Assembly: GCA_949358305.1 (NCBI GenBank)
Contig: OX442324.1
Coordinates: 8,529,601 to 8,593,600 of the forward strand
Length of the DNA stretch: 64,000 nucleotides
Reading direction: 5' to 3'
Origin: Strigamia acuminata
Taxonomy: Eukaryota > Arthropoda > Chilopoda > Geophilomorpha > Linotaeniidae
In this document: positions 7,840 through 63,701 of the stretch, in pieces
Layout of the letters: each line of letters opens with the position of its first letter
Position numbering within the stretch: the stretch's first letter is position 1
The notes under the pieces: generated by a model
What the model saw: only the letters and a program-made list of their open reading frames with translations
Told to the model about the DNA's origin: nothing
The model's database searches: none
Position numbers and translations under genes: made by a program

Positions 7840-7841
7840 TA

Positions 7842-9480: not shown

Positions 9481-9484
9481 TATA

Positions 9485-15233: not shown

Positions 15234-15778
15234 TGTAGGTCGGTAGCAGAGGAAAACGACCAAAAACCACTCGAAACGTCGAGTGCAGCGTGGCGAAAAC
15301 GTCGCAAAGGCGTCGCACTACTCGTGCGAACGTGTGGGCGACGTCGGAATCGAAAAACAAATAAAACGGCCGCGATATTCGCTTATACGCCGTGACAAAT
15401 GATAAACAAGTGCTTAAAAACATAAAACATATTTAATGAAAAGGGAATACTCACAAATGAGTCCATTACAGTGTGAAATGAAAAGGGCGAGAGCCAAAAC
15501 GATGGTCGCCGCCATATTGGAAGGTGATAAGTACACTGACGACACCTGGTGTCGTGAATTGGCGTTACGGAATTGAGAAATTCCGTAAAGCTTAACAAAG
15601 CATTAAGACCTGCATGATACTTCATGCAAAAACACAACAAGTGTATATAAATACGGGAAAAGATAAACAATATCGAATATTAAATGAAATGTGGAAATAC
15701 ATCGAGATAAATGAAATAAACAGTTCAAATGTGATCCTATATCACATCGATAATATCTCACGGTCCTATAGACCAACA
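15234..15778 (-). repeat. 3' LTR of copia A
   Basis: On the coding strand it runs TGTTGGTC...CTACA. The polypurine tract (complement of CCCCCTTTCG, 15782-15791) abuts its start. It contains a perfect hairpin ACGACACCTGGTGTCGT near 15538-15554. Confidence 0.93.
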
Positions 15779-15871
15779 ATTCCCCCTTTCGATGGAAATA
15801 GGATCAGGGGGAAAAGAAATACGGTTACTGGAATTACAGTAGATAATAATCGAAAATAAACCAAAAGTCGA

Positions 15872-15940
15872 ATCGCCGAGCCGGGTACTGTTATTGAAAA
15901 CGCCACGTAGGCCCGAATATTCCCGCAGAAACTTGGCGAT
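15872..15940 (-). promoter_or_regulatory. Stem-loop downstream of pol, copia A
   Basis: ATCGCCGAG (15872-15880) pairs with CTTGGCGAT (15932-15940) around a 51-nt loop. The loop shares CCGGGTACTGTTA and GCCCGAAnATTCCC with element B, while the stem bases differ but still pair. It lies between the pol stop and the polypurine tract. Confidence 0.65.
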
Positions 15941-15982
15941 CCTCAAAGTCGGGTAAATAACGAAAGAATGTCACGATAAAGT

Positions 15983-18900: not shown

Positions 18901-20375
18901 TATTCGCAACCCGTTCGACTCTAGCGGCAAAGTCTTTAAAGCATTCGAAGACTTGGGATTTCTGCGCTAATGGGGTGATCCAAGTATATCTGGTGGCGTC
19001 ATCGATGATTGTTAGAACATAACGAGCTCCACCGAAAGATGTTGCAGGATCCGGGCCCCACACGTCCATGTGCAGGAGGTCGAGTGCTTTGGTAGTACTC
19101 GGGTGAAGGTCCGGTTTGTGGGAAATCTTAATCGATTTTGCAAGACGGCAGTCATTGCAAGCGAGTTCTTGTTTTACTTCTCCCGGTTCCATTCCGTATA
19201 CTTGGTCGTTATTCGCCAACAGGCGCATTGCATTTGTGTGCAAATGCCCTAACCTGCTATGCCATAGCCCCGTAGCGTCCTTTACGGTTGCAGGATTAGC
19301 AATTACCTTCTTTGGTGACTTAGAAGGATTGCTAGGAGGAGGAGGTATGGCAAGAGGAGTATTAGGTAATGGCGTTGTCGGAATGGATTGGAGAACGTTG
19401 GAATAGGATTGGACAGGAGGATCAGGCTGGATATTTGTGGATTTAGGGGAAATTTGAGACTGGATGGGATTAATGATCTGATTCGGAATTTGCTTCGGAA
19501 TTGGTGGCATTTCTATGCGAAAATCCGTGTTGTCTCCTTGTTTCGATTTCCCCTTTTTCGGTTTCGGAATGTTCTCAAAATCCACTTCTGTGGTGACATA
19601 AGTCAGCGCCGGCGTTTGCTGAACGGGTGTCGGAATTACCGTCGACACTGGAGTCGAAATCGCCGCAGACACAGAAGGAGTCGAACACAAACCGTCCACA
19701 TAATATAATCCTGCCTTCTCCTTTGCCCGAAGAATAGAACTTTGAATGTCCGATTGGTAGATGTTGACCTCACCATTATAGAAGTGTATGTGATGACGTG
19801 TTTTATCGATTTTGGAAACCGAAATCAAATTTGCTTCGAAGTTCGGTGCAAAAAGTACGTTCGTCAAATTCACAATACAATTGCAATCATCTATTCTTGT
19901 GAGCAGTCGGACATTTCCTTTTCCAGTCACCTTGGACTTGCCTTGTCCGAGTTCGATGTCGAAAGGCACGATGTCAACAAAATCCGTAAACCAAGCCCGA
20001 ACGTATGAAACGTGGTCCGTCGCGCCACAGTCGACAATCCATTCGTTGGATTGCATGAAATGGGCAACTGGGCGCGCTGGAGCTTGCGGGGCACTGGCGA
20101 AGAATGTCCCTTCTCGGGTTGGACGAGAACAACCTCGCGGACGCGTATCATCTGGTTTTGGCGCAGAATTTTTGCTACGCTTCTTGCTCTTGCTTCGAGA
20201 GCGTTGGAAAGAAGTCGATGCCTGATTACTCTTGTCGCGTGGAGGAAATGGGCACTTGTTGGCATAATGCACCATCTCATTGCAGTTGAAACATTTAATT
20301 TCCGATAACGGTCGACGAGGACGTGAATTCTTCCGGGATTGTTGGCCTTTTACAGACGAATGCACAGAAGACGAG
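15983..20375 (-). CDS. Copia A polyprotein, part 2: zinc knuckle to RNase H
   Basis: About 1460 codons continuing gag after the B insertion. The CCHC knuckle is CFNCNEMVHYANKCP (20247-20295). The protease active site is DCGA (about 20011-20044) rather than the usual DSGA. The pre-integrase finger is WHSRLGHLH (19219-19268) with a later CNDC pair. Integrase Asp (LLHMDVWG, 19056-19079), Asp (RTDRGGEF, 18861-18884) and Glu (NGTAERINRT, 18750-18784) are present. An MBD-like module is at 17562-17776. RT has YVDD (16913-16931). RNase H has TMEAEF (16299-16318) and ends near 15983. It encodes virion proteins and replication enzymes of a copia retrotransposon. No internal stop. The part upstream of 20375 lies at 27231-27841. 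Confidence 0.93.
17562..17776 (-). other. MBD-like module in copia A polyprotein
   Basis: Reads W-I-R-E-E-H-L-R-K..., then DVYYFPEPGLRLRS, then PELFFFGNME. Relative to the first Trp, the Arg at +7, and the Asp, Tyr and Arg of the DVY...RS block correspond to the methyl-CpG-contacting Arg, Asp, Tyr and Arg of animal MBDs. It has one extra residue before DVY compared with MeCP2. It lies between integrase and RT. Confidence 0.75.
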
Positions 20376-20380
20376 TGTAC

Positions 20381-20854
20381 TGTAGCAGAGGAGGAGGCGC
20401 TTGGCGGTCTGTACGACCGTGTGGAAGCGTGAATAACGCGAATGCGCGGCCGAAATGGCGGGCGCGCGACGTCGCCGCTAATGGCGAACAGAAAAGAGCT
20501 GCCGCACGTGGAAAACGTGCTTATCTGCAGCTAAACAACAACTAGGCAGTGTAAAAATAACATATATTTAATAAATAAAAGCAAAACTTACAATGGGAAT
20601 CCATTTGGATGAAAAGCAATGATAAAGCACTGCATACGTGCAGGCTGACATCTTGGATTTGTGAAAAGTACAAGTGACACCATCTGGTGTGGGAAAAGGT
20701 AAACTTATATAATACTAAGCTGCGGGCAGCATTATGCCCAATGCTAAATAATCAATTAAAGACTAAATAAATATAGGAAGCAGCTTGATGCTGGGAAAAA
20801 TACTAATAATATCCGTGATGAGTACGGAGGACTAGTTGGGATCGGAAAACAACA
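20381..20854 (-). repeat. 3' LTR of copia B
   Basis: On the coding strand it runs TGTTGTTTTCC...CTCTGCTACA. It is preceded by a polypurine tract complementary to TTTCCCCCTTCGATG (20856-20870). It contains the palindromic word ACACCATCTGGTGT near 20680. Confidence 0.95.
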
Positions 20855-20958
20855 ATTTCCCCCTTCGATGCCAAATAGTAAAAGCTAATCGAACATAAGT
20901 GGGGACAACTCGAAATGTAACTTTACATTATACAATAAAGGAAAATAAAAGGGCGAAC

Positions 20959-21023
20959 CATCAAGCCGGGTACTGTTAATACAATCGCTACGGAAGCCCG
21001 AAAATTCCCACTGGAACTTGATG
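20959..21023 (-). promoter_or_regulatory. Stem-loop downstream of pol, copia B
   Basis: CATCAAG (20959-20965) pairs perfectly with CTTGATG (21017-21023). The stem differs at several positions from that of element A, while loop words CCGGGTACTGTTA and GCCCGAAAATTCCC are conserved. It sits just after the pol stop. Confidence 0.68.
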
Positions 21024-21055
21024 ATCCTCGAAGTTGGGTAAATAAATAAGGAATG

Positions 21056-24000
21056 TCATGATAAGTTGAAGTTGAAGATCCGAGAGATTAGCAGACGTAG
21101 TTGTGTTGAGCTCAACCATTTGGTGAAGATGTCTGCTACATTCATTGGTCCAGAAATCTTTCTCAGTTCGAATGCACCTGCTGTGTACCATTCCCGAATC
21201 CAATGAAACTTCACTCGGATATGTTTCGTCTTACTATTCTCCACGTCATTTGAAGTGAATTGGATGGAAGAAAGTGCATCGGAAAACACTATTGGCTTTG
21301 TTGATCGATTCAACATCGGGACGGAACTATAGACATAGTCTAACCAATACAGCTCCCGGACGCACTCAACGAGGGCGACAAATTCCGCTTCCATCGTTGA
21401 GCACGCCACGCTGGTTTGTTTTCGGCAACTCCATCCGATGGGGACATTTCCAATGTATGCAATATATCCGCCGAAACTTAATGACGTGGTAATGTCCGTG
21501 GCCCAGGACGCATCAGTATATCCCCAAAGCTGTCCACTAGTGCAGTTTGAAAGTTCAATGGCATAATCAATGGTATTTCCCACATAGCGAACCACCTGCA
21601 TTAAAGCTTTGATGTGGGTGTGATCATAGCAGTTGTTGAACTGGGATAACAGGATAACTGAATATAGAATGTCAGGTCGTGTCCTCGACGCGAGGAAGAG
21701 AAGTGAGCCTATTAACGAACGGTATGGAAACTCGGACAAATTCTCTTTTGACCCTTTGACGAGCGTCGTCCCTGGAGTCACGGGCACTTTGATGAGTTTG
21801 TCGGGTGTGATCTCGAACTTCTTAAGGATCTTCTGAATGTATGACTTTTGAGAGATATAGATCCCTTTTGATGTGCGGATGAACTCAACGCCTAAGAGTT
21901 TCGAGATGGGACCCAAATTTACAATGTCAAATTTGGTACTGATGAGAGCGATTAGGTGAGTCAGGATGCCATCGGTTGCGTAAAATAAAACAATGTCATC
22001 GACATAGATGAGCATCACGGCAGAGGTCCCGTAGATGTATACGCAGTTGCACCCTGGTAATCTTCGAAAGCCTAAATCACGCAAGGTTTGGTCAAGCTTT
22101 TCAAACCATTGTCGCCCCGATTGGTGGAGTCCATAGAGCGACCTAATCAATAACCATACGTGATTTGGATTTGAACATGTTGCGCCAGCTGGAATACGCA
22201 TGTACACTTTATGTGCAAGATCGCCGTATAGGTACGCGCATTTGACGTCCAAATGCGCGTCCTTCCATCCTTTAAGGACAACTAACAGGCAGAAAAACAG
22301 GCGTATAAGAACGAAGTTGACAACAGGGCTGAAGACCTCATCATAGTCTACTCCTAACGTTTGACGAAAGCCCTGTGCCACTAATCTGGCGCGATATCTT
22401 GCAGGTTTGCCCTGAGAATCCTCCTTTAGTTTGAAGAGCCACTTGCATCCCAATATTGTCGTATTTTCCGGTTTTGGGACTTCTTCGTAGACGCCTCTTT
22501 TTGCAAAAGTGTCCAATTCTTCATTAATGGCTTCTTGCCATTTTGTCGCATCCGGAAACCTTACAGCCTCTGCGTAACTTGTGGGATCACGACGACAAAG
22601 GTGCACTCTGGGAAGTGGTGGTGGGAGATTCTCTAATTCGTATTCCATATTTCCAAAGTAAAATAATTCGGGATCATACGGAATGTTGTTCATGTGGCAG
22701 AATTCCTCAACCTCGCCTCTAGAACGTAGTCGGAGTCCTGCTTCAGGGAAATAATAAACGTCTGTTTTTAATTTGCCAGGTTCCTGCACTTTACGTAAAT
22801 GTTCCTCTCGTTTCCAGTGTCTGCACTCAGTATCTCCACCAATGTAACGCCATTTGTAAGCCGTTGCGGCACCAGTTGGAGGTGGACCATGGTGGGCTGC
22901 TTGATGGACTTGAGGTGCGTTCCCACGAGAGCCTCGACGAGCATTTACAAAACTCGGAGGTGAACCTGGTGGTGTTCCTGGCGGTGTATGGCTTGGAGTA
23001 TTGCCAGGAGTAATAACTGGACTCGGCACTGGTGTTATCACTGGAGTAATCAGTGGAGCTCGAATGGGAGATCCCGGAGGTGGAGTGACTGGCGGGGTCC
23101 GGTATTGAGCACCTTGCGGAGTTGAATCGTCAGAATCATAATCCGTATCATTTTCGTCTTCTGAATCCGAAAATTTGGGCCAATCGGTATACTGCAGACC
23201 GTCGTCAAATCTCACTTGTGGTCGAGAAGTTCGCTGCGTTTGGCGATTATGCGAGATTGATTGCGTTTGGTCCAAATCTGGTCCCATCCATGGGTCTTGT
23301 GGACCTCGGTAATGATTAGAGCGTCTATAAGATTGCCGCTCATCAATCTGGACATGGATCGACTCAATGACCTTGTTATCTGTTGGATTCCAGACGCGAT
23401 ATCCTCTTGTTGTCGTGGCGTATCCGACTAAAAAGCCCTCCCAAGCTCGAGGATCTAATTTGTCCCTGCCAGGTGCTGTATGGTGAACCCAGCACTTGGA
23501 ACCTAACTTCCGAAGGTGTCGGAGTGAAAGGGCACGTCGTCGCCATAAAATGTAGGGCACCTCATTTTTAAGACGAGAATGAGGGCATCGATTCTTTATA
23601 TACGAGAATGTCACTGCGAATTCCGCCCAAAGTTCATTTGGAAGACCAGTTTCATCTAATATGGCACGAGTGTAATCTGCCATTGTGCGGTTTATCCGCT
23701 CTGCTGTGCCATTCATAGCGGGACTATGGGGATTGGTCCGCTGGGCTTGAATTCCAGTTTCTTTCAGATATCTCTCAAATTCATTCGACATGAATTCTCC
23801 TCCTCGGTCAGTCCGGATGGCCTTAACCCGTTTGTTAGTCACTCGCTCTATTCGTGTGACATAATCCTTGAAAAGTCCAAATACTTGGGATTTCTGGGCC
23901 ATCGGAAATATCCAGGCGTAGCGCGTGGCATCATCTATTATAGTTAGTACGTAACGCGCGCCCCCGTAGGAAGTCGTTCTTGAAGCTCCCCACACGTCCA

Positions 24001-25876
24001 TGTGCAGGAGATCTAAAGCCTTTGTTGAGATAGGATGCTCATCCGGTTTGTGAGAGACACGGGTTGATTTTGCAATTCTGCAATGATTGCAAGAAAGTTC
24101 TTTATTTACTTCTGCCGGGGTTACTCCATACACTTGTTCATTTCCGGCCAGAAGTTTCATAGCATTGGTGTGTAGGTGACCCAATCTGCTGTGCCATATC
24201 CCCGTCGCATCCTTTCTGACCGTAGGCGCTGCAACCGTCTTTGCGTTGGTTAGCCTTGAATTCGGCTTCGGATTTGAGGGAATTGCCTTTAATGTGTCGG
24301 CAAAGGACGGGACTTGAGGTAATGTTTTGGTAGGGACAGGCATGGTAGGTGTCTTGGACTGGGTTGTCTTGACAGGAATAGGCGGAGGAAGTTCATTTGG
24401 CAAGGGAGGAAATTCGAGCCGAAAATCAGTAAAGAGCTCAGGATCTTTTGACTTTTTCCTTGCCTTGGGATACTGGATGAAATCCTCTTCCGCTGTGACT
24501 AATGTTCGAGTCGGAGCGGTCGACTGCGCAATAGGCGCATCCACTGTTGACATCAGTGTTAAAGGTGGGCACAAACCGTCCACGTAATAGAGGCCGCCCT
24601 TTTCTTTGGCTCGAAGCATTGGATGATCGATATCAGACTTGTAAACGTGAACTCCACCATCCCAAATGTGGATGTGATGTTTGGCTTTGTCCATTTTTGA
24701 CACGGAAATTAGGTTCGCCTCGAATTTTGGCGCGAACAGCACATCTTGAAGATTTGCAACACATTCTACGTTGTTGATCATCGTGACAATTCGGACTTTG
24801 CCCTTGCTGAGAACTTCAGAGTGTCCTTGACCTAATGCAATGTTAAAGGGCACAACTTTGACGAAATCCTGAAACCATGCTTGAACGTGGCACACGTGGT
24901 CGGTCGCCCCACAATCCACAATCCATTCATGTGACTGTGTAAAGTGAATTGTGGGCAACTGCATGGCTTGCGGGGCACTGGCGAAAAAGTTTGTTTCCCG
25001 CCTTGCGCTGGAATTCCCCCTTGGTCTGGAATCATCCCGGTTCGAGTTCTTGTTGCGTTTACGGCTTGAACTCCTCGGCTTCCTTTGAAGTGATGCCGTC
25101 GGTTGATTTTTGTCGTCTCGGCGAGGTGGTAATGGGCATTTGTTAGCATAATGTCCATATTCCTGGCAATTGAAGCATTGCACCGAAGATAACTGTCTAG
25201 GGGGTCGAGATCGGTTTCTTCCACGCTGTTTTTCACCAGCGTAAGCACGTGATGATTTCGAACTGTCCAAATCGCGCGAGTCCATCGCTTTGAGTCGCAT
25301 GTGTTCCGCGAGTAATTGCTCAGCCACTTTCTTTGGCGTAAATTCACCGTTGGGCAAATGATATGTTGTGAATGAAATCTGTGAATATTCACGAGGCAAT
25401 AAGTCCAAGTATTGGTAAGCATGGTGATCAGGCGAAGTTATCTCGCCGATGTCCTTCATTTGGCGGACATGGTAGTCTACGCAACTTAGAAAATCAGCCA
25501 TGTCTTCGCCTTGTTCCAGGCGCAAATTCAGAAATTCACGGCGCATGGCTGCCTGTCGCGCACGGGATGATGGCGCGTAAATATTGGCTAAAATGTCCCA
25601 AGCCTCTTTAGGGGTCTTGCAGTCATCTAGCGCAGACTTTTTAGCCTCGCTCACGGAACAATATATGAGGCCTAACGCTTTGGCTTTACGCCGCTTGTAT
25701 TTCTTTTTCTCTTTTTCTCCGGCAGTTTTCAAAAATTCCACTTCTTCTTCTTCCGTCACGTGGTCCCATAATTCCTCGCTTCTCAGCACCATGCGCATTG
25801 AGCGCTGCCAAAGTTCGTAGTTTCCTACGCTGAGAATTGGGAGACGTCCGGAATTGCCATCTGCGGATTTCGACAT
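21056..25876 (-). CDS. Copia B gag-pol polyprotein with MBD-like module
   Basis: 1606 residues if it starts at the Met codon 25876, chosen because the sequence after it (GRLPILSVGNYELWQ) matches the starts of A and F; an upstream in-frame Met at 25915 is possible. Domains by approximate residue: gag 1-225, CCHC knuckle CFNCQEYGHYANKCP 232, protease DCGATDH 320, pre-integrase WHSRLGHLH 560, integrase Asp in LLHMDVWG 625, Glu in NGTAERINRT 722, a Thr/Pro-rich linker about 930-990, MBD-like module 1005-1075, RT YVDD 1290, RNase H TMEAEF 1493. It has no stops and all catalytic motifs are seen. It makes the gag shell, protease, integrase and RT/RNase H of a copia retrotransposon. Confidence 0.95.
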   Translation of the reverse strand: MSKSADGNSGRLPILSVGNYELWQRSMRMVLRSEELWDHVTEEEEVEFLKTAGEKEKKKYKRRKAKALGLIYCSVSEAKKSALDDCKTPKEAWDILANIYAPSSRARQAAMRREFLNLRLEQGEDMADFLSCVDYHVRQMKDIGEITSPDHHAYQYLDLLPREYSQISFTTYHLPNGEFTPKKVAEQLLAEHMRLKAMDSRDLDSSKSSRAYAGEKQRGRNRSRPPRQLSSVQCFNCQEYGHYANKCPLPPRRDDKNQPTASLQRKPRSSSRKRNKNSNRDDSRPRGNSSARRETNFFASAPQAMQLPTIHFTQSHEWIVDCGATDHVCHVQAWFQDFVKVVPFNIALGQGHSEVLSKGKVRIVTMINNVECVANLQDVLFAPKFEANLISVSKMDKAKHHIHIWDGGVHVYKSDIDHPMLRAKEKGGLYYVDGLCPPLTLMSTVDAPIAQSTAPTRTLVTAEEDFIQYPKARKKSKDPELFTDFRLEFPPLPNELPPPIPVKTTQSKTPTMPVPTKTLPQVPSFADTLKAIPSNPKPNSRLTNAKTVAAPTVRKDATGIWHSRLGHLHTNAMKLLAGNEQVYGVTPAEVNKELSCNHCRIAKSTRVSHKPDEHPISTKALDLLHMDVWGASRTTSYGGARYVLTIIDDATRYAWIFPMAQKSQVFGLFKDYVTRIERVTNKRVKAIRTDRGGEFMSNEFERYLKETGIQAQRTNPHSPAMNGTAERINRTMADYTRAILDETGLPNELWAEFAVTFSYIKNRCPHSRLKNEVPYILWRRRALSLRHLRKLGSKCWVHHTAPGRDKLDPRAWEGFLVGYATTTRGYRVWNPTDNKVIESIHVQIDERQSYRRSNHYRGPQDPWMGPDLDQTQSISHNRQTQRTSRPQVRFDDGLQYTDWPKFSDSEDENDTDYDSDDSTPQGAQYRTPPVTPPPGSPIRAPLITPVITPVPSPVITPGNTPSHTPPGTPPGSPPSFVNARRGSRGNAPQVHQAAHHGPPPTGAATAYKWRYIGGDTECRHWKREEHLRKVQEPGKLKTDVYYFPEAGLRLRSRGEVEEFCHMNNIPYDPELFYFGNMEYELENLPPPLPRVHLCRRDPTSYAEAVRFPDATKWQEAINEELDTFAKRGVYEEVPKPENTTILGCKWLFKLKEDSQGKPARYRARLVAQGFRQTLGVDYDEVFSPVVNFVLIRLFFCLLVVLKGWKDAHLDVKCAYLYGDLAHKVYMRIPAGATCSNPNHVWLLIRSLYGLHQSGRQWFEKLDQTLRDLGFRRLPGCNCVYIYGTSAVMLIYVDDIVLFYATDGILTHLIALISTKFDIVNLGPISKLLGVEFIRTSKGIYISQKSYIQKILKKFEITPDKLIKVPVTPGTTLVKGSKENLSEFPYRSLIGSLLFLASRTRPDILYSVILLSQFNNCYDHTHIKALMQVVRYVGNTIDYAIELSNCTSGQLWGYTDASWATDITTSLSFGGYIAYIGNVPIGWSCRKQTSVACSTMEAEFVALVECVRELYWLDYVYSSVPMLNRSTKPIVFSDALSSIQFTSNDVENSKTKHIRVKFHWIREWYTAGAFELRKISGPMNVADIFTKWLSSTQLRLLISRIFNFNLS
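22650..22860 (-). other. MBD-like module in copia B polyprotein
   Basis: Reads HWKREEHLRKVQEPG, then DVYYFPEAGLRLRS and PELFYFGNME. The Arg seven after Trp, and the Asp, Tyr and Arg of DVY...RS, are all kept. It is nearly identical in layout to A. Confidence 0.75.
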
Positions 25877-26019
25877 AATGACGTGAAGACGGCGAAATAA
25901 TTCGTAATGAAGCACACTGAACTAGGAATGGTACGTTTGAAGCACACGATGATTCCAGAGCACAACACTTCACAACACTTCACAATCCCACGTGGTTCTA
26001 AGCGGATAACCAGAAGGGG

Positions 26020-26130
26020 AGTCAATTCTAAGATTGACTGACAACCTGTGATTAGTGTCCCCCTAGCGTCCTTTGCGACCACCTGGGGTCTCGGGAATGC
26101 TAGGTGGCGCAGGGCTCAGCCTAATCACAG
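26020..26130 (-). promoter_or_regulatory. Structured leader RNA domain, copia B
   Basis: Outer stem CTGTGATTAG (26046-26055) with CTAATCACAG (26121-26130) encloses 65 nt. Inner stem CCTAGC (26062-26067)/GCTAGG (26099-26104). Apical stem GACC/GGTC (26077-26080, 26087-26090) closes the loop ACCTGG. A separate hairpin AGTCAAT/ATTGACT is at 26020-26039. The same architecture with different stem bases occurs in A, F and I. It lies about 140 nt upstream of the gag start. Confidence 0.8.
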
Positions 26131-26399
26131 AATACAATGACACTTGCCCGGATTCGAGCGTAGGGTGCCAAGGATTCTAATAAACCCACTCCAAAATCCC
26201 CCTTAATGCTAACAATAATTAAATCGACAAGAAGGCGAAATAGATGAGTCAATTGCGGTTGCAATTCACGTGCAAATGAAGGCACGGCGCAGCTTTCTCG
26301 AAAAGCTGGTGAAAACGCTGATTCGAACGTTAATGCTCGAATCCTTCTCGAAAAATTCGAGGCTCTTCTTCCTCTTGAATAGATTGGCGTATAACGACC

Positions 26400-26413
26400 G
26401 TTCACCGGGGAAC
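26400..26413 (-). promoter_or_regulatory. ACCGGG-loop hairpin, copia B leader
   Basis: GTTC-ACCGGG-GAAC. The loop contains self-complementary CCGG. Equivalents in A, E, F and I have different but pairing stems. Confidence 0.6.
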
Positions 26414-26736
26414 TAAGCCGCGAATAACTTGTATTCGATTCTAGTGGTAACTGCCGCAACTCGCTAAGCAGTGACGAGAATCGCATTTGACGTGAAATCT
26501 GAAAATAAATAAATTTCGTCGCGGAATTTGCGAAACCCGCACAATTCCGGACTAAAACAGGTTAATGATGTTGCAATACACGATGTTCGTCGCTTGGAAC
26601 GTCGGTGATACGTCGGCGAACGCGAATCAAGACGGAAATCGGCGATAGCTGAAAATAGACAAATTTCGGCGCAAAAATCGCGAATTTCGCGAAAATTACG
26701 TCGAATATTAGACAAATAATGGCTGGTTTAGGTGGC

Positions 26737-26754
26737 AACCATCCTCTGCTACCA
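26737..26754 (-). promoter_or_regulatory. Primer-binding site, copia B
   Basis: On the coding strand TGGTAGCAGAGGATGGTT, an 18-nt match to the complement of the animal initiator-Met tRNA 3' end, two bases from the LTR. The LTR's own end (CTCTGCTACA) can pair with it. Confidence 0.85.
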
Positions 26755-26756
26755 CT

Positions 26757-27230
26757 TGTAGCAGAGGAGGAGGCGCTTGGCGGTCTGTACGACCGTGTGG
26801 AAGCGTGAATAACGCGAATGCGCGGCCGAAATGGCGGGCGCGCGACGTCGCCGCTAATGGCGAACAGAAAAGAGCTGCCGCACGTGGAAAACGTGCTTAT
26901 CTGCAGCTAAACAACAACTAGGCAGTGTAAAAATAACATATATTTAATAAATAAAAGCAAAACTTACAATGGGAATCCATTTGGATGAAAAGCAATGATA
27001 AAGCACTGCATACGTGCAGGCTGACATCTTGGATTTGTGAAAAGTACAAGTGACACCATCTGGTGTGGGAAAAGGTAAACTTATATAATACTAAGCTGCG
27101 GGCAGCATTATGCCCAATGCTAAATAATCAATTAAAGACTAAATAAATATAGGAAGCAGCTTGATGCTGGGAAAAATACTAATAATATCCGTGATGAGTA
27201 CGGAGGACTATTTGGGATCGGAAAACAACA
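26757..27230 (-). repeat. 5' LTR of copia B
   Basis: Same 474-bp sequence as the 3' LTR with one difference. It should carry the promoter for the minus-strand transcript. Confidence 0.95.
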
Positions 27231-27841
27231 TGTACATTATGCAATCCCATCGGTTTTAACCGTAGATATTCGGAAATCAACTGTTCAGCGACTTTATTCG
27301 GTGTAAAGTCCGGATCAGGCCAATGATATATGGCAAACGTAGCTTGGGCGTATTCGGGCGGGAGTCGGTTGAGGTACTGGTATGCATGGTGATCATCTGT
27401 CGTAACCTCTTTGATATCGGCTAATTGACGGACAAAGTGATCCACTCGATTGATGAAATCCTGCATTTCCTCATTAGGTTCGAGATGTAATGTCAAGAAT
27501 TCCGACCGTAATGCTGCCCGTCGTGCCCGCGAACTGGGCGCGTACGCCTTTGCCAGAACGTCCCATGCCTGTTTAGGAGTATCACAATTGTCCAGGGCTG
27601 AACGTTTCGGTTCACTGACATACATATAAATGTGTCCGAGAACTTTGTCCTTTTTAACCATGTAACGTTCTTTCTCTTTTTCGGATAATGTCAAGAGATG
27701 GTCCGCCTCCTTTTCCTCCGTTACATGCCTCCAAAGGCCCTCGGATTTTAAAAACATCCGCATCGCTCTCTGCCAGGGCTCGTAATTCCCGACAGAGAGT
27801 ATGGGAATTCTGCTGACCGTTGTTTCCGTTGTCTTTTGCAT
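27231..27841 (-). CDS. Copia A polyprotein, part 1: gag N-terminal region
   Basis: Starts at Met 27841 (MQKTTETT), by analogy with B and F. It contains copia gag words ILSVGNYEPWQRAMRM, LDNCDTPKQAWDVLAKAYAPS and YQYLNRLPPEYAQATF. It runs to the B insertion point, where the codons continue in frame at 20375 once one duplication copy is discounted. About 200 residues. Confidence 0.9.
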
Positions 27842-28019
27842 CGTTTCGAAGACTCGGCGCACCACGCAAAATACAAAGGCTCGAAGAAATGGTATAACGG
27901 CGATCGAAGCACTTCACAATGGCACAAATAGTGTGTACGAATGTTTGTTCACACAATGTCGTGGCACTTATCACAAAATCACCTCCCTCGTGGTTCAAAG
28001 CGGATATCACCAGAAGGGG

Positions 28020-28130
28020 AACCAATGCTACAATTGGTTGAGAACCTAAAGCAAGTGTCCCCCTAGCTTCCTTTATAGCCACCTGGGGCTGCGGGAGTGC
28101 TAGGTAGCGCAGGGCTCAGCCTTGCTTTAG
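28020..28130 (-). promoter_or_regulatory. Structured leader RNA domain, copia A
   Basis: Outer stem CTAAAGCAAG (28046-28055)/CTTGCTTTAG (28121-28130) with exactly 65 nt between. Inner stem CCTAGC/GCTAGG (28062-28067, 28099-28104). Apical AGCC/GGCT around ACCTGG. Preceding hairpin AACCAAT/ATTGGTT (28020-28039). Every stem differs from B in bases but stays paired. Confidence 0.8.
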
Positions 28131-28420
28131 AATACAAACACCGCTTGGACAGACTTGTCCGTAGGGCAGTGTCGATACTAAAGGATTTCTTCCAAAATAC
28201 CCACTTAAAACTAACAATTTAAATACGACAAGAAGGAGAAATAGATGAATCTCCCGTGGAAGGTCACACGGGCTCGCGGCAAAGCACGAGACGGGTTTTC
28301 TCGAAAAACCCGCTAGAAAAGCGCAATTCGGCTTCGAAAAACCGAATTCTTCTCGATTTAACGAGGCTCTTCGTGAAAAATACACAAATCGTCGTAATAA
28401 TTCAAAAATCGGCGATACTA

Positions 28421-28440
28421 CATGCACACCGGGGTGCATG
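28421..28440 (-). promoter_or_regulatory. ACCGGG-loop hairpin, copia A leader
   Basis: CATGCAC-ACCGGG-GTGCATG, a 7-bp stem with a loop containing CCGG. Confidence 0.65.
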
Positions 28441-28760
28441 AAGCGAGAATCGTCTCGTTTCTCGTTGTGAAACGTCTCGTCGACGTTGTCGGAAGAGAAA
28501 ATCGTCGAAATCCTGAAAAAAACAAAAATTCGCCTCGAAATTTGCGAGACCGCACAATTTCGGACGAAATTAGCTGGAGAATCACGTGAAGCGTAGCGCA
28601 GGTTGCTTGTGAACGTCGGTGGAACGTTGTCGACGTTGAAATCACGGAAATCCAGCTTGAAAATGGCGAGAAACCTGAAAATATAAATTCGCCGCAAAAT
28701 TCGCGAAATTCGCGAGATTTTCGGCGATAATTAGTAGCAAATGAAGCGTGCAGAGGATTT

Positions 28761-28778
28761 AACCATCCTCTGCTACCA
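28761..28778 (-). promoter_or_regulatory. Primer-binding site, copia A
   Basis: Coding strand TGGTAGCAGAGGATGGTT, complementary to the initiator-Met tRNA 3' end, two bases from the LTR. Confidence 0.85.
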
Positions 28779-28780
28779 AT

Positions 28781-29325
28781 TGTAGGTCGGTAGCAGAGGA
28801 AAACGACCAAAAACCACTCAAAACGTCGAGTGCAGCGTGGCGAAAACGTCGCAAAGGCGTCGCACTACTCGTGCGAACGTGTGGGCGACGTCGGAATCGA
28901 AAAACAAATAAAACGGCCGCGATATTCGCTTATACGCCGTGACAAATGATAAACAAGTGCTTAAAAACATAAAACATATTTAATGAAAAGGGAATACTCA
29001 CAAATGAGTCCATTACAGTGTGAAATGAAAAGGGCGAGAGCCAAAACGATGGTCGCCGCCATATTGGAAGGTGATAAGTACACTGACGACACCTGGTGTC
29101 GTGAATTGGCGTTACGGAATTGAGAAATTCCGTAAAGCTTAACAAAGCATTAAGACCTGCATGATACTTCATGCAAAAACACAACAAGTGTATATAAATA
29201 CGGGAAAAGATAAACAATATCGAATATTAAATGAAATGTGGAAATACATCGAGATAAATGAAATAAACAGTTCAAATGTGATCCTATATCACATCGATAA
29301 TATCTCACGGTCCTATAGACCAACA
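28781..29325 (-). repeat. 5' LTR of copia A
   Basis: 545 bp. Differs from 15234-15778 at one base near position 40 (CAAAACG against CGAAACG). Followed by the duplication ATATG. Confidence 0.93.
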
Positions 29326-30057: not shown

Positions 30058-30764
30058 TATTAGCACGGTTCTCCACACGATTCTTTGAGTATTGTATGGC
30101 AGCCGTGCTATCAGCAAGAACACAAGGCGTCGAAACGTTAAACATCGATGCCACTAAGTCAATATTAAATAAAATCTTTAGCCAGATTATCTCCCTAACA
30201 CCATCCACTATCGCAACAAACTCGCTCTCCATGATGAAGAGCGATGTCATGTGCTGTCGTCGACATGACCATGTTATCGGGATTCCACATTCGCGTTGGT
30301 TTGGTACCCCTTTGGAATACTCATTTACTGTGGTACGTCTAGATCTCCATACAGATAAGCTGCTTTAATATCCAAATGAGTATCCCGCCAGTTTCCGAGT
30401 ACCACCAGTGTACAAAAGAAAACAAGAACGATCACGGAGTTCATGACCGGGGAGAATACTTCTCCAAAATCAAAGCCCTGCTTTTGTTTGAACCTTTGTG
30501 CAACTAAAAGTGCTAGAAATCGTTTTATTTCTTCAGATTGATCAAGCTTTAATTTGTAGATCCATTTACTCCCTAGGAGTGTCTTCTTAGGTGGGATGTC
30601 TATTTCTTCATAAACATGTCTCTCTTTGAATACTCCCACCTCTTCATCCATAGCCTTTCCCATTCCCTCTTGTTGGGGTCACGCATTGAATCTTCATAAG
30701 AATCCGGTTCCGCCATTGATAGTCACGCTTCAGGGTGAATGGAAATTCTTTCTGGTCCCTTTGG

Positions 30765-30945
30765 AGCAAATTTAAATAGTTCAGGGTCGTAGATGTAACC
30801 TTCATCTTCGCACCACTGTGCAACCTCAGCACGACTACGAAGTCTGTCATTCATTGGACTCATGCAGTATACATCTACTCGCCCTTTTGTTCTCCCCCTC
30901 TTTTGTACTATTTCTTTTCGGACCCAATCCCGCATGTCCAAAACT
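30765..30945 (-). other. Decayed MBD-like module in copia J
   Basis: Reads W-V-R-K-E-I-V-Q-K-R-G..., then DVYCMSP, RLRS and PELFKF. Spacing from Trp to DVY equals MeCP2 (17 residues). The Arg at +7 is Gln here, while Asp, Tyr and Arg remain. Confidence 0.65.
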
Positions 30946-43985: not shown

Positions 43986-43989
43986 GGGA

Positions 43990-49981: not shown

Positions 49982-49999
49982 AATCCCCCTTTGCTTAAA

Positions 50000-50836: not shown

Positions 50837-51146
50837 TGTTGTTTTTAGAAGAGATGAGGCGGGAAAAACAAAATAAACATCGTTTATTTGCAAGTGCAGC
50901 TTTGCACACGTAAAGGAAAAATTTACAAGTGATAAAAAAAAACTTAAAAGGCGATACATAAACTTGGGTTAAACAAAACCCGATAAACGAAATCTAACAA
51001 ACAAAACAATGTCAAATACGGGATCTCATTTGATCCATACAGAAATCAATGTTCACTAATTTACAAACTGATAAATATCAAAACAGCAAAATGAACATTG
51101 AGAATAAACAGTAAACAATCAATCTCGGGGAATAAAAAGCCCAACA
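50837..51146 (-). repeat. 3' LTR of copia E
   Basis: Coding strand TGTTGGGCTTTTTATTCC...AAAAACAACA. The flanking purine tract is the complement of GAGCCCCCCATTCTCC. LTR and tract together can form a stem (ATCTCGG/CCGAGAT). Confidence 0.95.
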
Positions 51147-51222
51147 AGAGCCCCCCATTCTCCGAGATAATAAATAAATCTCAGTCGAAAAGAAACACAA
51201 AAACCCAAAAACAATATCGATA

Positions 51223-51279
51223 GTCAATTGGTTGCGGTACATAACAAGCAGTGATAAAAATCAGAATCAACCAATTGAC
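51223..51279 (-). promoter_or_regulatory. Stem-loop downstream of pol, copia E
   Basis: GTCAATTGGTTG (51223-51234) pairs perfectly with CAACCAATTGAC (51268-51279) around a 33-nt loop CGGTACATAACAAGCAGTG.... Similar loops with different stems are in the LTRs at 49809-49862, 58922-58973 and 40513-40567. Confidence 0.75.
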
Positions 51280-51319
51280 AAATGCACATAAGCGGGATCC
51301 CGAAAAACTATAATCGAAA

Positions 51320-54300
51320 TTACCGAAAGAAATGTTTGCACAAAAACTGCAAACGTGCGGGCGAGAAAAACTTCGTAAAAATGTCGGCGGGATTTAAATC
51401 GCCGGAAATCTTTCGTAAAACAAAAACGCCCTCGGTAAGCCAATCCCGCAAAAAGAAATAGCGCACATCGATATGTTTGGTCCGACGATTTTCGATATCA
51501 TTCCTCGTAAAATAAATCGTAGACAACGAATCAGAAAACATCGTCGGAGTGGGCAAACGGAAAATTCGGGTCCGATCGATCGCGCCGTGGAGCCAAACGA
51601 TCTCCTTCGCGCCATCGAGAAGTGCCAAAAACTCGGCTTCCATGATGCTTAAAGCGCAATAGCGCTGCTTACAGCAGCCCCAGGAGATGGGAACCCCGAA
51701 AATCGAAATCGTGTACCCTCCGAAGCTCTTTCTTGTATCTCGGTCCGAGATCCAAGAAGCATCGGAGTACCCTGACAGGATGTCTCCAGTGACCGCGGAA
51801 AGGGAAATCGAATAATTCCGCGTGTTCTTCAAATACTGGAGAACCTGAAGCAGAAGGGCCACGTGCTTTGAGGTGAAGCACGTGTTGTACTGGGACAACA
51901 AAATCACCGGAAAGAGGATATCGGGGCGCGTGCGAGAAGCCAAAAACAAAAGCGACCCAATGAGAGAACGGTAAGGGAACTCGTCGTCGTTCAGCACACG
52001 TTCTCTCTCTCTAGCGCAATTCACCATTGTGCCAACGGTGATCGGAACCCTGCACAGACGCTCGGAGGAAATTCCGAAATCTTCCGCGATCCGATCAATG
52101 TAATCGCGTTGATGAATGGAAATATGTCCACCATCGCGATCAAACTGGACGCCTAACAGCTTCGATACCGGACCAAGATCTGTTATCGTGAAAAATCCAC
52201 GAAGGGCTTTAACAGTTCGGTCTCGAGGACCGGGTCCTTTGGTGAATAACACCATGTCATCGACATAAACCAGGATGACGGCATCGTAAGTGTCGGAAAT
52301 GAAAACGCCATTCACACCTAGAAGCTTGTGAAAATTAATCTCCAACAAGACTTCGACGAGACGAAAATTCCATTGTCGCCCGCTCTGATGAAGGCCGTAA
52401 AGAGCCTTATGAAGCCGCCACACTTTCCCAGTGTTTTGAGGAGTTTCCCAGCCCCTGGGAATCCTCATGAAGATGGCTTCATCCAAGTTGCCATAAAGAT
52501 AGGCACCCTTGACATCAAGGTGTGTGTCTAGCCAGCCTAAAACGACCACTAGAAGCACGAAAAATAGGCGTATCAAGACGTAATTGACCACGGGACTGAA
52601 AACCTCGGAATAGTCAACTCCGTACTTCTGGCTGAAACCCTGAGCTACTAACATCGCCCTGAAACGGCGCACAATGCCTTCTGCATCACGCTTGATGTAG
52701 TAGACCCATTTATTCCCCACAATGTTTACATCAGGAGGAGGTTTTTCAACTTCCTCGTAAACACCTCGCTCACGAAAGAGATCAAGCTCTTCCTCCATGG
52801 CTTTCTGCCAATGGACACGGTCGGGGCTAGAAATAGCTTCCTTGTAGGTGCGAGGAACCTGAGCAAACAAGGAATGCGCGTACCGTGGTGGTTCGGTAGA
52901 ATAGCAATCCGCAAACGCTTCCTCTTCCGAAGTAGTGGGACTTCGAAGAAGGGAAACATTAGGATCTACCGGTGGGGGATCAACCATTTGAACTGGCACA
53001 TTTTGGGTGCGAAAATCAAAAGAGTCACGATCGTATGCCAAACGATTATCGACGCAATATCGCTCTACGTCGCCATGACTCCGCAATCTGGTATGATCTG
53101 GCGGGAAAAAATACACATCCGTGTGACCCATAGATGCACCAGACTGCCGAATCACCTCAGAACGAGTCCACTTGCCCCCCACAGCCGGAGAAGCAGGCGG
53201 AGGCTGACGCAGTGGCGAGTGAACAGGAGGTGGAGGCAAAGGATGTGCTCTCAATGGGGGTTGCATAGCAATAGGTGAACCTGGAGGTGGAATTCCAGGA
53301 GGTGGAGGTCCTGGAGGTGGAAGTCCAGGAGGAGGCGGAGGAGGAATTGTAGGCGGTGGAAGACCACCCACAGGAGGACGCGGAGGAAGTGGAGGAGGAA
53401 TTGGGTCAGAACCAAAATCCGGCTCGAGCTCCACCGATATCGCACCTTCATCGGTGATTTCGGTGCCCTCATAAAAACGAGGATGTCCCCACATACATTC
53501 CTCATCGAAACGGATATGTTTCGACTCGAAAACTTCTCTGCGCTTAGGGCACCACACGCGATAACCCCGCGTGCGAAAGGCATAGCCAACCACGACGCCA
53601 GTCCAGGCTCGGGATTCGAATTTCGAACCACGGACTTGCTTCGGGATGTGCACGAAACACCGTGACCCAATCACCTTAAGGTGTTTGAGTGGAACAGTCT
53701 TGCCATACCACAGACAATAGGGGACAAGATTGTTCAGAGACTTATGTGGGAAGCGGTTCTTCAAATAAATCATAGTAACCGCGAGCTCAGCCCACAGCAC
53801 TCGAGGCAAAGACGTCGACAAAAAGAAAGAACGCACGCCCTCAAGTAAGGTGCGGTTAAGGCGTTCCGCGACGCCATTCTGCTCTGGTGTATAGACATTC
53901 GTGCGCTGTGCTTTGATGCCGCGCTGGACTAGGAAATTTTCGAAATTTTTGGAACAAAATTCCATGCCATTATCAGTCCTGACTGCTTTAATGCAGCCAG
54001 CCCCCCATAAAACCTCCATCCGAGCATGGAATAGCTTAAAAACCTCGAAAACTTCCCCCTTCGTTTTCATGGGCACAACAAAGGAGTAACGGGAAAAGTC
54101 GTCTACGATCGTCAACAAATAACGAGCGCCACCGATGGATGTGGTATTTGAATGACCCCAAACATCCATATGAAGCAAATCTAAAGGCTTCTTGGAAGAA
54201 ATACCTTCCTTAATGCTTGGAAATGAAGCACGGGTGGATTTGGCGCGGGCACACACAGCACATGCTGGCAATGCGGAAGTAGAAATTTCTATTCCGGATG

Positions 54301-55837
54301 CATTCGGAGATTTCGCCAAGTGACGGATACCGTCGGCATTAAAATGCCCAAATCTCCGGTGCCAAAGCTCCAAATCAGACAACTTTCCCTTCGGGGGTTT
54401 GGGAGAAGAGGTTGAAACAAGTTCCTCGGCAAAAGTGACATGCCGGACAGGTGACTGCAAAGTCGACGCAGAAAGAACCTGTTTGGGAACTGGGGCGAAT
54501 GTAGCCGCAGGAGGCTTCGCAGATGTAAGATCCGCGGGCAAAATATTCTGAAGGGAATATAAATCACCCTTCAGTTTGGCCGTCAAAAGAAATTGTTTGG
54601 CTTTATCATTAGGGTGATAAATGGACATAATACCATTCGCGGCTGTCAAATGCAGTCCGGCACGGTCGATCTTCGACAAACTCACCAAATTACGCGCGAA
54701 AGCAGGGGCATGCAAAACATTATGCATAGTCACGGGAAAATTAGACCCCCCAGCGCCGCCACGGCCAACACGCAACACCACATCTCCAATACCATCCACT
54801 CGAGAACGACCTTCACCTAAAATGATGAAATAATTGGAGACCGGCTTGTAATTGGTGAAACGATCACGCACTGGACACACATGGTCGGAAGAACCCGAAT
54901 CGATGAGCCACTCATTCGATGAAGCTGAAGACACATTCGATTCCGATCGCGCGAAGAAATTGATCCCGGTCACCACATTCGAAGAAACAGTAGCCGTCTG
55001 CGAAGCACCACCACCGCGTCCACGCTTGCGGTTGCGCGAATTCGAGCGTCGACCACGATTGGCGGATGGAGCGGAAGAGGCAGCGCCTTGGACACGGGGT
55101 TTGGGGCACTTGTTCGCGTAGTGTCCCATTTCCTTGCAATTGAAACACTGAATTTGCGATAACGGCCGAAAAGGCTTATTCGGCGTACCCGAAGTCGAAC
55201 TAGTAGACTGCAAACTAGTCGATGATCCCGAATCCGCATTCTTCATCTTTAAACGATTAAATTCCGAGAGAAGATGGTCGGTGACTGCCTTTAAGGTGAA
55301 ATCTGCCTTAGACCAATGATAAATGGTCTGTACTGTCGCTTCGTACGAATCCGGTAAAAAATCCAGAAGTTGATAAGCGACATCCGAATCCGAAAATTTG
55401 ACATCCAATTCAACCAAAACCGTACGGGCTTTGGTCACGCGGCTTACGAAGACTGACATATCTTCATTTGGAAGTAATCGCATCATGAGGAAATCACGGC
55501 GAAGTTTCGCAATTCGGGCAAGAGAAGTCGGTTGAAATGTGGCTTTCAATGCCACCCAGGCGTCGCGAGCGGTGTCCGCAGCGAGAACGATGTCCTGATA
55601 CTGTGGCTCAACAAATAGGCCAAGCAATGCTTTGGCGCGTTTGGAGCGGTCATCGTGAAGTTGTTTCCTGGTCTGATCCCACGTATCATCCTTCACGGGA
55701 GGTTTTTCGTCAATAAACTGGTCCACGCCTTTCTCCAGTAATAAAAACTGGATATTCCTCGACCACGATTCGTAATTGTCCGAATTAAGTCGTGCAATGG
55801 AGAAATGATGCGTGGTTGATTTGTCAGATTCAGCCAT
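51320..55837 (-). CDS. Copia E gag-pol polyprotein with MBD-like module
   Basis: 1505 residues from Met 55837 (MAESDKST). Approximate positions: gag to 220, CCHC knuckle CFNCKEMGHYANKCP 229, protease WLIDSGSSDHVC 308, pre-integrase WHRRFGHFN 492, integrase Asp LLHMDVWG 552, Asp in RTDNGMEF, Glu in NGVAERLNRT, a long polyproline linker 803-869, MBD-like module 887-944, RT YVDD 1190, RNase H IMEAEF 1397. No stops and all catalytic residues seen. It has the standard DSG protease, unlike A, B and F (DCG). Coding capacity appears complete for retrotransposition. Confidence 0.95.
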   Translation of the reverse strand: MAESDKSTTHHFSIARLNSDNYESWSRNIQFLLLEKGVDQFIDEKPPVKDDTWDQTRKQLHDDRSKRAKALLGLFVEPQYQDIVLAADTARDAWVALKATFQPTSLARIAKLRRDFLMMRLLPNEDMSVFVSRVTKARTVLVELDVKFSDSDVAYQLLDFLPDSYEATVQTIYHWSKADFTLKAVTDHLLSEFNRLKMKNADSGSSTSLQSTSSTSGTPNKPFRPLSQIQCFNCKEMGHYANKCPKPRVQGAASSAPSANRGRRSNSRNRKRGRGGGASQTATVSSNVVTGINFFARSESNVSSASSNEWLIDSGSSDHVCPVRDRFTNYKPVSNYFIILGEGRSRVDGIGDVVLRVGRGGAGGSNFPVTMHNVLHAPAFARNLVSLSKIDRAGLHLTAANGIMSIYHPNDKAKQFLLTAKLKGDLYSLQNILPADLTSAKPPAATFAPVPKQVLSASTLQSPVRHVTFAEELVSTSSPKPPKGKLSDLELWHRRFGHFNADGIRHLAKSPNASGIEISTSALPACAVCARAKSTRASFPSIKEGISSKKPLDLLHMDVWGHSNTTSIGGARYLLTIVDDFSRYSFVVPMKTKGEVFEVFKLFHARMEVLWGAGCIKAVRTDNGMEFCSKNFENFLVQRGIKAQRTNVYTPEQNGVAERLNRTLLEGVRSFFLSTSLPRVLWAELAVTMIYLKNRFPHKSLNNLVPYCLWYGKTVPLKHLKVIGSRCFVHIPKQVRGSKFESRAWTGVVVGYAFRTRGYRVWCPKRREVFESKHIRFDEECMWGHPRFYEGTEITDEGAISVELEPDFGSDPIPPPLPPRPPVGGLPPPTIPPPPPPGLPPPGPPPPGIPPPGSPIAMQPPLRAHPLPPPPVHSPLRQPPPASPAVGGKWTRSEVIRQSGASMGHTDVYFFPPDHTRLRSHGDVERYCVDNRLAYDRDSFDFRTQNVPVQMVDPPPVDPNVSLLRSPTTSEEEAFADCYSTEPPRYAHSLFAQVPRTYKEAISSPDRVHWQKAMEEELDLFRERGVYEEVEKPPPDVNIVGNKWVYYIKRDAEGIVRRFRAMLVAQGFSQKYGVDYSEVFSPVVNYVLIRLFFVLLVVVLGWLDTHLDVKGAYLYGNLDEAIFMRIPRGWETPQNTGKVWRLHKALYGLHQSGRQWNFRLVEVLLEINFHKLLGVNGVFISDTYDAVILVYVDDMVLFTKGPGPRDRTVKALRGFFTITDLGPVSKLLGVQFDRDGGHISIHQRDYIDRIAEDFGISSERLCRVPITVGTMVNCARERERVLNDDEFPYRSLIGSLLFLASRTRPDILFPVILLSQYNTCFTSKHVALLLQVLQYLKNTRNYSISLSAVTGDILSGYSDASWISDRDTRKSFGGYTISIFGVPISWGCCKQRYCALSIMEAEFLALLDGAKEIVWLHGAIDRTRIFRLPTPTMFSDSLSTIYFTRNDIENRRTKHIDVRYFFLRDWLTEGVFVLRKISGDLNPADIFTKFFSPARLQFLCKHFFR
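53005..53178 (-). other. MBD-like module in copia E polyprotein
   Basis: Reads KWTRSEVIRQSGASMGHTDV, then YFFPPDHTRLRS, and ends DSFDFRT. The W-x-R...V-I-R-x-SG-x-S-x-G-x-x-DVY-F...RS...SFDFRT pattern is that of animal MBD2/3 and MeCP2. Trp to Asp spacing is 17 as in MeCP2. The Arg (+7), Asp, Tyr and Arg that contact methyl-CpG are all present. Best preserved of the four copies. Confidence 0.85.
53230..53430 (-). other. Polyproline linker of copia E
   Basis: Proline-rich stretch including PPPPPPGLPPPGPPPPG, just before the MBD-like module. Resembles profilin/SH3-binding tracts; it may be only a flexible spacer. Confidence 0.8.
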
Positions 55838-56263
55838 CTCGAAGAGCGGTAATGAAGAGCGGTGTCACTTTGAGAAATGTCAACCGTGGCAAAGAAAAAT
55901 GCAATTACGCGCTGGGAACCGATGACGATGTTCGAGGCGGATATCCAACGAATGGGCTATACAGGTTACTAGTTAACCCGTCTAAACAATGGCCGTTTAG
56001 GAGTTGTCGGGAATTAACGGCCCTGTGGCCCCCGGATACCCCACTGTCGGGCACGGCAAAATAAATACAATGGTCAAAGTGCAATGACCAAGGCAAGGAA
56101 TCAAATCTGCAAAAATAATTAAACTTTTGCAGAATTAATCCCAGGATCCTACACAGGGTCCCCCAAAAGTTTCACAAAGTTTCACGACTGGGAAGGCGAA
56201 AAATATGAAAATAAGAAAACAAAAGAGGCGAATTAAACAAAATTCGCAGGAGATTCTCTGTTG

Positions 56264-56279
56264 CGCACACCGGGGTGCG
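56264..56279 (-). promoter_or_regulatory. ACCGGG-loop hairpin, copia E leader
   Basis: CGCAC-ACCGGG-GTGCG. A second hairpin with an 8-bp stem CGTGTTCG/CGAACACG around TAACCGGGG is at 56461-56485, and CGCAC-ACGTC-GTGCG near 56336-56350. Confidence 0.65.
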
Positions 56280-57141
56280 AAAATCCTTCGAAATCGTTGA
56301 AAATCCTCGGCAATCGTCAGCCGCTTCGCACACGTCGTGCGGGAATAATCCAACCGAAAACAGCTAGAAAAACATATGAAAACATTAGAAATAAGTTCAC
56401 AAAAGTTCATGTGCTGGGAAATTGTCGAAAAGTTCAAAAAATCGTCGTACACGGCCGCCTCGTGTTCGTAACCGGGGCGAACACGGAAAAACGACGAAAA
56501 ATCGACGATAAATGCACAAAATAAATTCGACAGTACTCACAAATGCTTGTGAAAACAAGCATACAATCCAACAATCCCTGGCACAACACAAAAGCACTAA
56601 ACACAGTGAAGATCTCGATGAATGTCGACTCGGAAATCCTCGCAATGCGCACGGGCTTACGGCGCAAAAACGATGAAAATCGGCTCGAAAAAATCGGAAA
56701 TTACCACGAAAAGTACTCACAATTGTGTGCACAACACGTATACTGCTAAATACAAGCAGAACTCCGTCGCACTCGGACGAAAACACGGTGAGAAACGTCG
56801 AATCGGGCGGCGAAAATCATCGCGAACTCGGTTCATCTCGATCGGGCGCGTCTGCGGTGATCATCGGCGAAAATCCACGGAAATTCATCGGAAAAAGTAC
56901 CCACGATTCTTCAACAAGGTTAGGACAGCACCCACGAAAATTTTCTGCATTAAAATCCGTTGGAAATTGCGGAAAAAGCATCAAATTCGTCGGGTGAGCG
57001 GGCGTGAAGAAACGAGGTCGGCCATTGTTCCAGGAATGAGCGATCGATGAGCGCGAATGAGGTGGCCGAAAATCACTGTAACAACTCGAAAAAATGGAGT
57101 AATTCGACTCAAAAAGCACTCACAGATGATGTTTAGTCCAT

Positions 57142-57155
57142 ATCCTCTGCTACCA
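57142..57155 (-). promoter_or_regulatory. Primer-binding site, copia E
   Basis: Coding strand TGGTAGCAGAGGAT, immediately next to the LTR with no spacer. Confidence 0.85.
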
Positions 57156-57465
57156 TGTTGTTTTTAGAAGAGATGAGGCGGGAAAAACAAAATAAACATC
57201 GTTTATTTGCAAGTGCAGCTTTGCACACGTAAAGGAAAAATTTACAAGTGATAAAAAAAAACTTAAAAGGCGATACATAAACTTGGGTTAAACAAAACCC
57301 GATAAACGAAATCTAACAAACAAAACAATGTCAAATACGGGATCTCATTTGATCCATACAGAAATCAATGTTCACTAATTTACAAACTGATAAATATCAA
57401 AACAGCAAAATGAACATTGAGAATAAACAGTAAACAATCAATCTCGGGGAATAAAAAGCCCAACA
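57156..57465 (-). repeat. 5' LTR of copia E
   Basis: Identical to 50837-51146 as read. Confidence 0.95.
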
Positions 57466-60700: not shown

Positions 60701-60704
60701 AATT

Positions 60705-63699: not shown

Positions 63700-63701
63700 A
63701 C

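Follow-up and report, generated by a model that had tools for sequence, protein, structure and literature searches.

What is the segment that separates integrase from reverse transcriptase (RT) in several copia polyproteins of the centipede Strigamia acuminata, and what might it do for the elements that carry it? The window, by which we mean the whole stretch of 64,000 nucleotides that was analysed (X chromosome, 8.53-8.59 Mb), holds four elements in which this segment is retained, and a preliminary description had read it there as a methyl-CpG-binding domain (MBD) that may direct integration to methylated DNA. The features on which the analysis is based are the following.

50837..57465, minus strand: element E, full-length copia-type LTR retrotransposon with an MBD (LTR pair and target site duplication)
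51320..55864, minus strand: open frame of E, 1514 codons from stop to stop (ORF list, Pfam scan)
52988..53188, minus strand: MBD module of E, 67 residues (PF01429, 37.5 bits, E-value 1.8e-9)
15234..29325, minus strand: element A, MBD copia with both LTRs, interrupted by B (LTR pair and target site duplication)
17549..17752, minus strand: MBD module of A, 68 residues (PF01429, 20.7 bits, E-value 3.1e-4)
20381..27230, minus strand: element B, full-length MBD copia nested in the gag of A (LTR pair and target site duplication)
21056..25921, minus strand: open frame of B, gag to RT with the MBD, 1621 codons from stop to stop (ORF list, Pfam)
22631..22834, minus strand: MBD module of B, 68 residues (PF01429, 28.1 bits, E-value 1.6e-6)
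30744..30944, minus strand: MBD module of relic J, a decayed copia whose stops and frame breaks surround the module (translation); the module has 67 residues and is free of stops (PF01429, 29.5 bits, E-value 5.8e-7)

Elements E, A and B are young insertions that have kept both LTRs, and the two LTRs of each element are 99.8-100% identical. The 310 bp LTRs of E (50837-51146 and 57156-57465) showed 0 mismatches in 311 aligned columns, those of A (545 bp; 15234-15778 and 28781-29325) 1 mismatch in 547 aligned columns, and those of B (474 bp; 20381-20854 and 26757-27230) 1 mismatch in 474. Each insertion is flanked by a 5 bp target duplication, which is AAATC for E (read from the sequence), ATATG for A and TGTAC for B, and the primer-binding site beside the 5' LTR of all three presumably corresponds to the end of the initiator-Met tRNA. 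Two of these three insertions are nested inside other copia DNA: B lies within A, the gag of which was found by Pfam on B's far side, and E sits at the start of an older copia's gag (the copia at 48423-50704, described below), as judged by eye from separate translations of the flanks with the gag assigned by Pfam. Scanning the pieces of E, A and B with Pfam gave Retrotran_gag_2 (E and B), Pol_BBD, rve, SH3 and RVT_2; for the frame of E the resulting order is gag, zinc knuckle, barrel domain, integrase, SH3, MBD and RT. All three elements thus display the Ty1/copia order gag-PR-IN-RT, with A's gag placed beyond B, and in E, A, B and J alike the module is situated between the SH3 domain of integrase and RVT_2.

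Other repeats are present in the same window. In the older copia that received E (48423-50704, minus strand), no more than some 400 bp separates the gag frame from the RT frame, the integrase-MBD stretch being missing, and its frame 48423-49592 contains RT only according to Pfam. The ends of a short copia derivative (60702-63838, minus strand) are repeated, near 60.8 and near 63.7 kb; the only domains that Pfam found in it, with the frame 60702-63026, are those of gag, the zinc knuckle, the barrel and the pre-integrase region, and near this derivative 158 bp match DNA within B at 84%. The plus strand carries a gypsy-type element (34694-39160) with terminal repeats that are 99% identical (191 bp matched) and with two frames, 34920-36353, for which Pfam gave no match, and 36086-39109, which contains RNase H, H2C2 and the integrase core together with a weak RVT_1 match. 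A large inverted repeat at 7840-9482 (arms of 555 nt, 97% complementary, spacer of 533 nt) is perhaps a foldback element, and tandem repeats with units of 21, 22 and 30-31 bp are found at 43937-44357, 12346-12677 and 5039-5346.

The module of E, A, B and J is a genuine MBD. When the four pieces were compared with Pfam-A by hmmscan (E-values up to 1), MBD was the only domain listed, and the scores of E, B and J exceed the curated PF01429 cut-off of 21 bits, with A just under it. The top match of the E module among PDB sequences, obtained with phmmer, was MBD2 (5.4e-10). An AlphaFold2 model of the E module, based on an alignment of 15 modules, had a mean pLDDT of 87.2 and a pTM of 0.72, and in a Foldseek comparison of this model with the PDB the first 43 rows were all MBD or TAM domains, the best match being MBD2 in complex with methylated DNA (6c1a_B, E 8e-5). 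Chance resemblance to an MBD is ruled out by these Pfam, phmmer and Foldseek matches. These results bear out much of the preliminary description, which had placed MBD-like motifs in E (they are present, on the minus strand), had reported the same module in A and B and the same order as in MBD2, and had proposed the profile and structure comparisons given here. Its statement that all four elements retaining this region carry the module holds for the window remnants scanned with Pfam, and what it called a decayed module in J is correct as to the surrounding copia but not as to the module itself. Finally, no phage relative came to light when 50,697 phage records were searched by tblastn with the B module (threshold 1e-5).

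The residues that contact methyl-CpG were taken to be the equivalents of MBD2's Arg, Asp, Tyr and Arg, with both Arg as arginine fingers. All four are present in E, as had been claimed, and also in A and B; J has Gln in place of the first Arg. Invariant in the 15 aligned modules are Trp7, Arg9, Asp24, Arg36, Ser37, Phe57 and Phe59. Arg14, the first arginine finger, is found in 14/15, with J as the exception, and both fingers together are likewise found in 14/15. The contact Tyr is replaced by Val or Ile in 5/15 modules (L005, L008, L085, L090 and L091). Two modules outside the alignment, L077 (C1:64158200-64160000) and L083 (C1:32530590-32532390), lack the contact Asp as judged by eye; they represent an MBD copia family without this conserved residue, which constitutes a natural test of the need for methyl-CpG reading. 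On the reading preferred below, these copies would bind methyl-CpG.

The genome also contains an MBD2/3 gene of its own (L070; C5:5733200-5739200, minus strand), which has an MBD_C match in addition. This gene adjoins WD40-like exons that by eye resemble SEC13. The host protein and the elements share the same domain (GWKREEIIRKSGLSAGKIDVFYY and SPSGKKFRSK...FDFRTGK); however, the host MBD is split by an intron, whereas the element MBD is intronless. The E module differs from MBD2 further in having three extra residues before FDF in the phmmer alignment.

The view in the preliminary description that no copia family with an MBD had been described is wrong. De Mendoza, Pflueger and Lister (2019, Genome Res 29:1277-1286, doi 10.1101/gr.243774.118) published a family of arthropod retrotransposons that had captured an MBD, and the available text of two further papers (PMC7343188, PMC9476566) ties captured-MBD retrotransposons to the centipede S. 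maritima, the second of them citing the 2019 study in connection with methylated repeats of that species. This known host belongs to the same genus as S. acuminata, and the published elements resemble those in the window in having an arthropod host, the Ty1/copia order and an MBD within the polyprotein. We take CopiaMBD to be the name given to them in 2019. They are said to be Copia elements, present in S. maritima and in a spider; methyl-specific binding was reportedly demonstrated by the same authors, who also reportedly observed accumulation in CpG-dense regions and proposed targeting. Hence both the phenomenon and its leading mechanism were already known, and from the same genus: the S. 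acuminata finding is genuine, but it is not new. What differs here is that a second species with chromosome-scale scaffolds displays several divergent families side by side, and that MBD-less copia of the same genome serve as a control for distribution. The modest addition made here consists of the S. acuminata elements and of the way in which, on the scale of chromosomes, they are segregated from MBD-less copia.

Two other kinds of retrotransposon invite comparison. Chromoviruses are Ty3/gypsy elements that carry a chromodomain at the end of integrase. They likewise combine an LTR retrotransposon with a chromatin-reading domain, which may direct insertion into heterochromatin (Gao et al. 2008). 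The present elements differ from them in being Ty1/copia with RVT_2, a copia gag and an MBD, and no chromodomain was among the Pfam listings for the pieces of E, A, B and J. In the second kind, cytosine methyltransferases have been captured (de Mendoza et al. 2018); these retrotransposons have also taken up methylation machinery, but there it is a writer enzyme and here a reader domain.

Further copies of the module were sought in the whole genome (237,517,015 bases in 157 contigs; the assembly is given as 237.5 Mb in 158 scaffolds in the available text of PMC10556566). The best 150 of 1092 candidates from a PF01429 profile search were scored, and 150/150 were over the cut-off; 124/150 lie in open frames of at least 1300 codons. 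Eight of these loci were fetched, and by eye all of them have copia-type surroundings, while one weak match (C3:20309085) is probably, also by eye, an exon of a host MBD/TAM gene. When this list was combined with those of the E-module search (best 150 of 1552 candidates) and the B-module search (best 150 of 1274), the number of distinct places with the module came to at least 440-445, fragments included. The presence of the segment in related copies, on which the preliminary description had made its reading depend, is thus widespread in this genome. Judged by eye and without formal clustering, the module occurs in some ten or more families that are clearly distinct. In scaffold C6, 15.34-15.66 Mb contains many equal-scoring MBD copia at a repeated spacing, which are probably segmental duplications.

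Not all copia elements have an MBD. From an RVT_2 search (best 150 of 2633 candidates), in which the longest frames listed reach 1465 codons, representatives were fetched that belong to other families. None of the ten representatives scanned contains an MBD, although integrase, SH3 and RT are present, and by eye an eleventh, L067, has none either; the MBD-less set used below is defined by this check on representatives. An MBD in every copia of the genome is therefore ruled out. A tree based on RT only (244 columns; copia of this genome, with the gappy row L001 left out) split 13 MBD rows from 11 MBD-less rows with a support of 100/100, and the same split was given by an earlier RT tree that included the linker following the MBD (14 MBD and 11 MBD-less rows). 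From these sequences, the MBD copia fit a single capture followed by vertical descent. Moreover, the module is under purifying selection. Its dN/dS was 0.08-0.18 in 3/8 pairs, dS being saturated in the other 5/8, and the comparison of E with L076 gave 0.14 for the module, 0.07 for RT and 0.29 for the linker.

Next to be considered is where these copies reside. The sets compared are the best-scoring 150 of each search, from which copies on small contigs were excluded for binning (16, 19 and 14 for the MBD sets, 3 for the MBD-less set and 8 for RVT_1). For scaffold C10 we used the length given in the table in PMC10556566. Bins of 1 Mb with two or more RVT_1 copies, which make up 10.6% of the chromosomes with the Y excluded, hold 84/241 MBD copies versus 8/130 MBD-less copia, all sets being thinned to one copy per 50 kb. 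A similar picture was obtained when the 1 Mb bins were instead chosen for holding at least two B-like copies (bins covering 13.2% of the chromosomes; copies unthinned, the lengths of several scaffolds being approximate): these contain 54/132 Pfam-found and 77/131 E-found MBD copies as well as 77/142 RVT_1 elements, and 10/146 MBD-less copia. Scaffold C13, which amounts to 4.6% of the chromosomes and is the putative Y, assigned as such by its lack of BUSCO genes according to the available text of PMC10556566, has 24/116 B-like, 12/116 Pfam-found and 10/105 E-found MBD copies, 21/127 RVT_1 copies and 4/134 MBD-less copia, thinned in the same way. MBD copia thus crowd into RVT_1-rich blocks that MBD-less copia rarely enter, in counts in which copies are not independent and families are unequal in age and in the selection acting on them. 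Such a bias is compatible with targeting to heterochromatin but cannot by itself separate targeting from retention.

CpG density around the insertions does not differ significantly between the two clades. In 600-bp flanks taken 9 kb away from 20 MBD and 20 MBD-less copies, median CpG per 100 bp was 4.4 versus 3.9 (p = 0.30, not significant at n = 20 each), and CpG observed/expected was 1.25 versus 1.24 (p = 0.78, n = 20 each). As for the methylation of the host, a profile search detected several PF00145 methyltransferase (DNMT-type) loci in the genome. In the available text of PMC7343188, S. maritima has 0.758 of 719 TEs in the highly methylated group and is one of two tabulated species in which most annotated TEs are methylated. 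The genome paper of that species (PMC4244043), in the part available, lists one Dnmt3 and four Dnmt1 genes, and only low germ-line methylation of genes was deduced there. By analogy with S. maritima, the blocks in which MBD copia accumulate in S. acuminata would be methylated.

We consider it probable that the elements of the window are members of what we take to be the known arthropod CopiaMBD group, with an MBD2/3-like capture that was kept between integrase and RT and that likely tethers the preintegration complex to methylated CpG. A copia lineage would have acquired an animal MBD2/3-like domain and would have retained it at this position while splitting into many families. Located on the integrase end of the polyprotein, and presumably still attached to integrase after polyprotein processing, the MBD would most likely hold the preintegration complex on methylated CpG DNA, which in Strigamia may be transposon-rich heterochromatin. 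We propose that new copies would therefore land away from genes. The bias would, on this account, arise at integration rather than by later retention. Several observations speak against tethering: RVT_1 elements share the blocks, flank CpG does not differ significantly between the two clades, some families are without a contact residue, and only low germ-line methylation of genes was deduced for S. maritima. The preliminary interpretation is partly supported: the assignment of an MBD in copia pol stands, and steering to methylated DNA is made plausible by the chromosome-scale distribution.

The most serious competitor, to which we give roughly one chance in three, is that MBD copia insert everywhere and that selection clears them from the gene-rich arms, so that they survive in low-recombination blocks and on the Y, with the MBD serving some other purpose. 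The occupation of the same blocks by RVT_1 elements is in line with this, as is the enrichment on the putative Y of MBD copies and RVT_1 elements alike. By eye, no chromodomain was visible at the two RVT_1-element integrase ends that were read (L073 and L074); because such elements crowd there, clustering in blocks needs neither an MBD nor, seemingly, a chromodomain. MBD-less copia, however, many of them full-length and equal-scoring within a family, are rare in the blocks, and retention alone must therefore act differently on two clades of copia. Tethering to methylated CpG could also be extended into a larger and doubtful reading, somewhat less credible than survival in the blocks, in which one MBD capture re-addressed the whole copia clade: MBD copia would fill the sex chromosomes along with the methylated blocks rich in RVT_1, MBD-less copia would occupy the arms, and the former would have helped to build X/Y heterochromatin.

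Two further explanations concern the module itself. It might work on copies that are silenced, or on silencing by the host, for example by competing with host MBD2/3 for methylated element DNA and so easing repression. Its closest likeness among solved structures is indeed MBD2, and the genome has an MBD2/3 gene, but the position between integrase and RT in the families that were read suits a partner of integrase or of the preintegration complex and not a free competitor; we regard this role as improbable. Even less credence is due to the idea that the module is a passive remnant which formerly bound methyl-CpG and no longer does. The losses of the Tyr in several families, of the first Arg in J and of the Asp in L077 and L083 would agree with it; against it stand the low dN/dS of the module wherever dS could be computed and the invariance of the second Arg, the Asp and the Ser in the 15 aligned modules. 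Tethering of the preintegration complex to methylated CpG remains our preferred reading.

As a discovery, these elements are more members of a published kind. They make S. acuminata a second centipede species whose retrotransposons carry a reader domain for the DNA-methylation mark of their host, and its copia clades with and without an MBD, side by side in one genome, provide a natural control that makes the targeting hypothesis testable. If the doubtful re-addressing of the clade were true, the compartment targeted by a lineage would have shifted through the capture of a domain.
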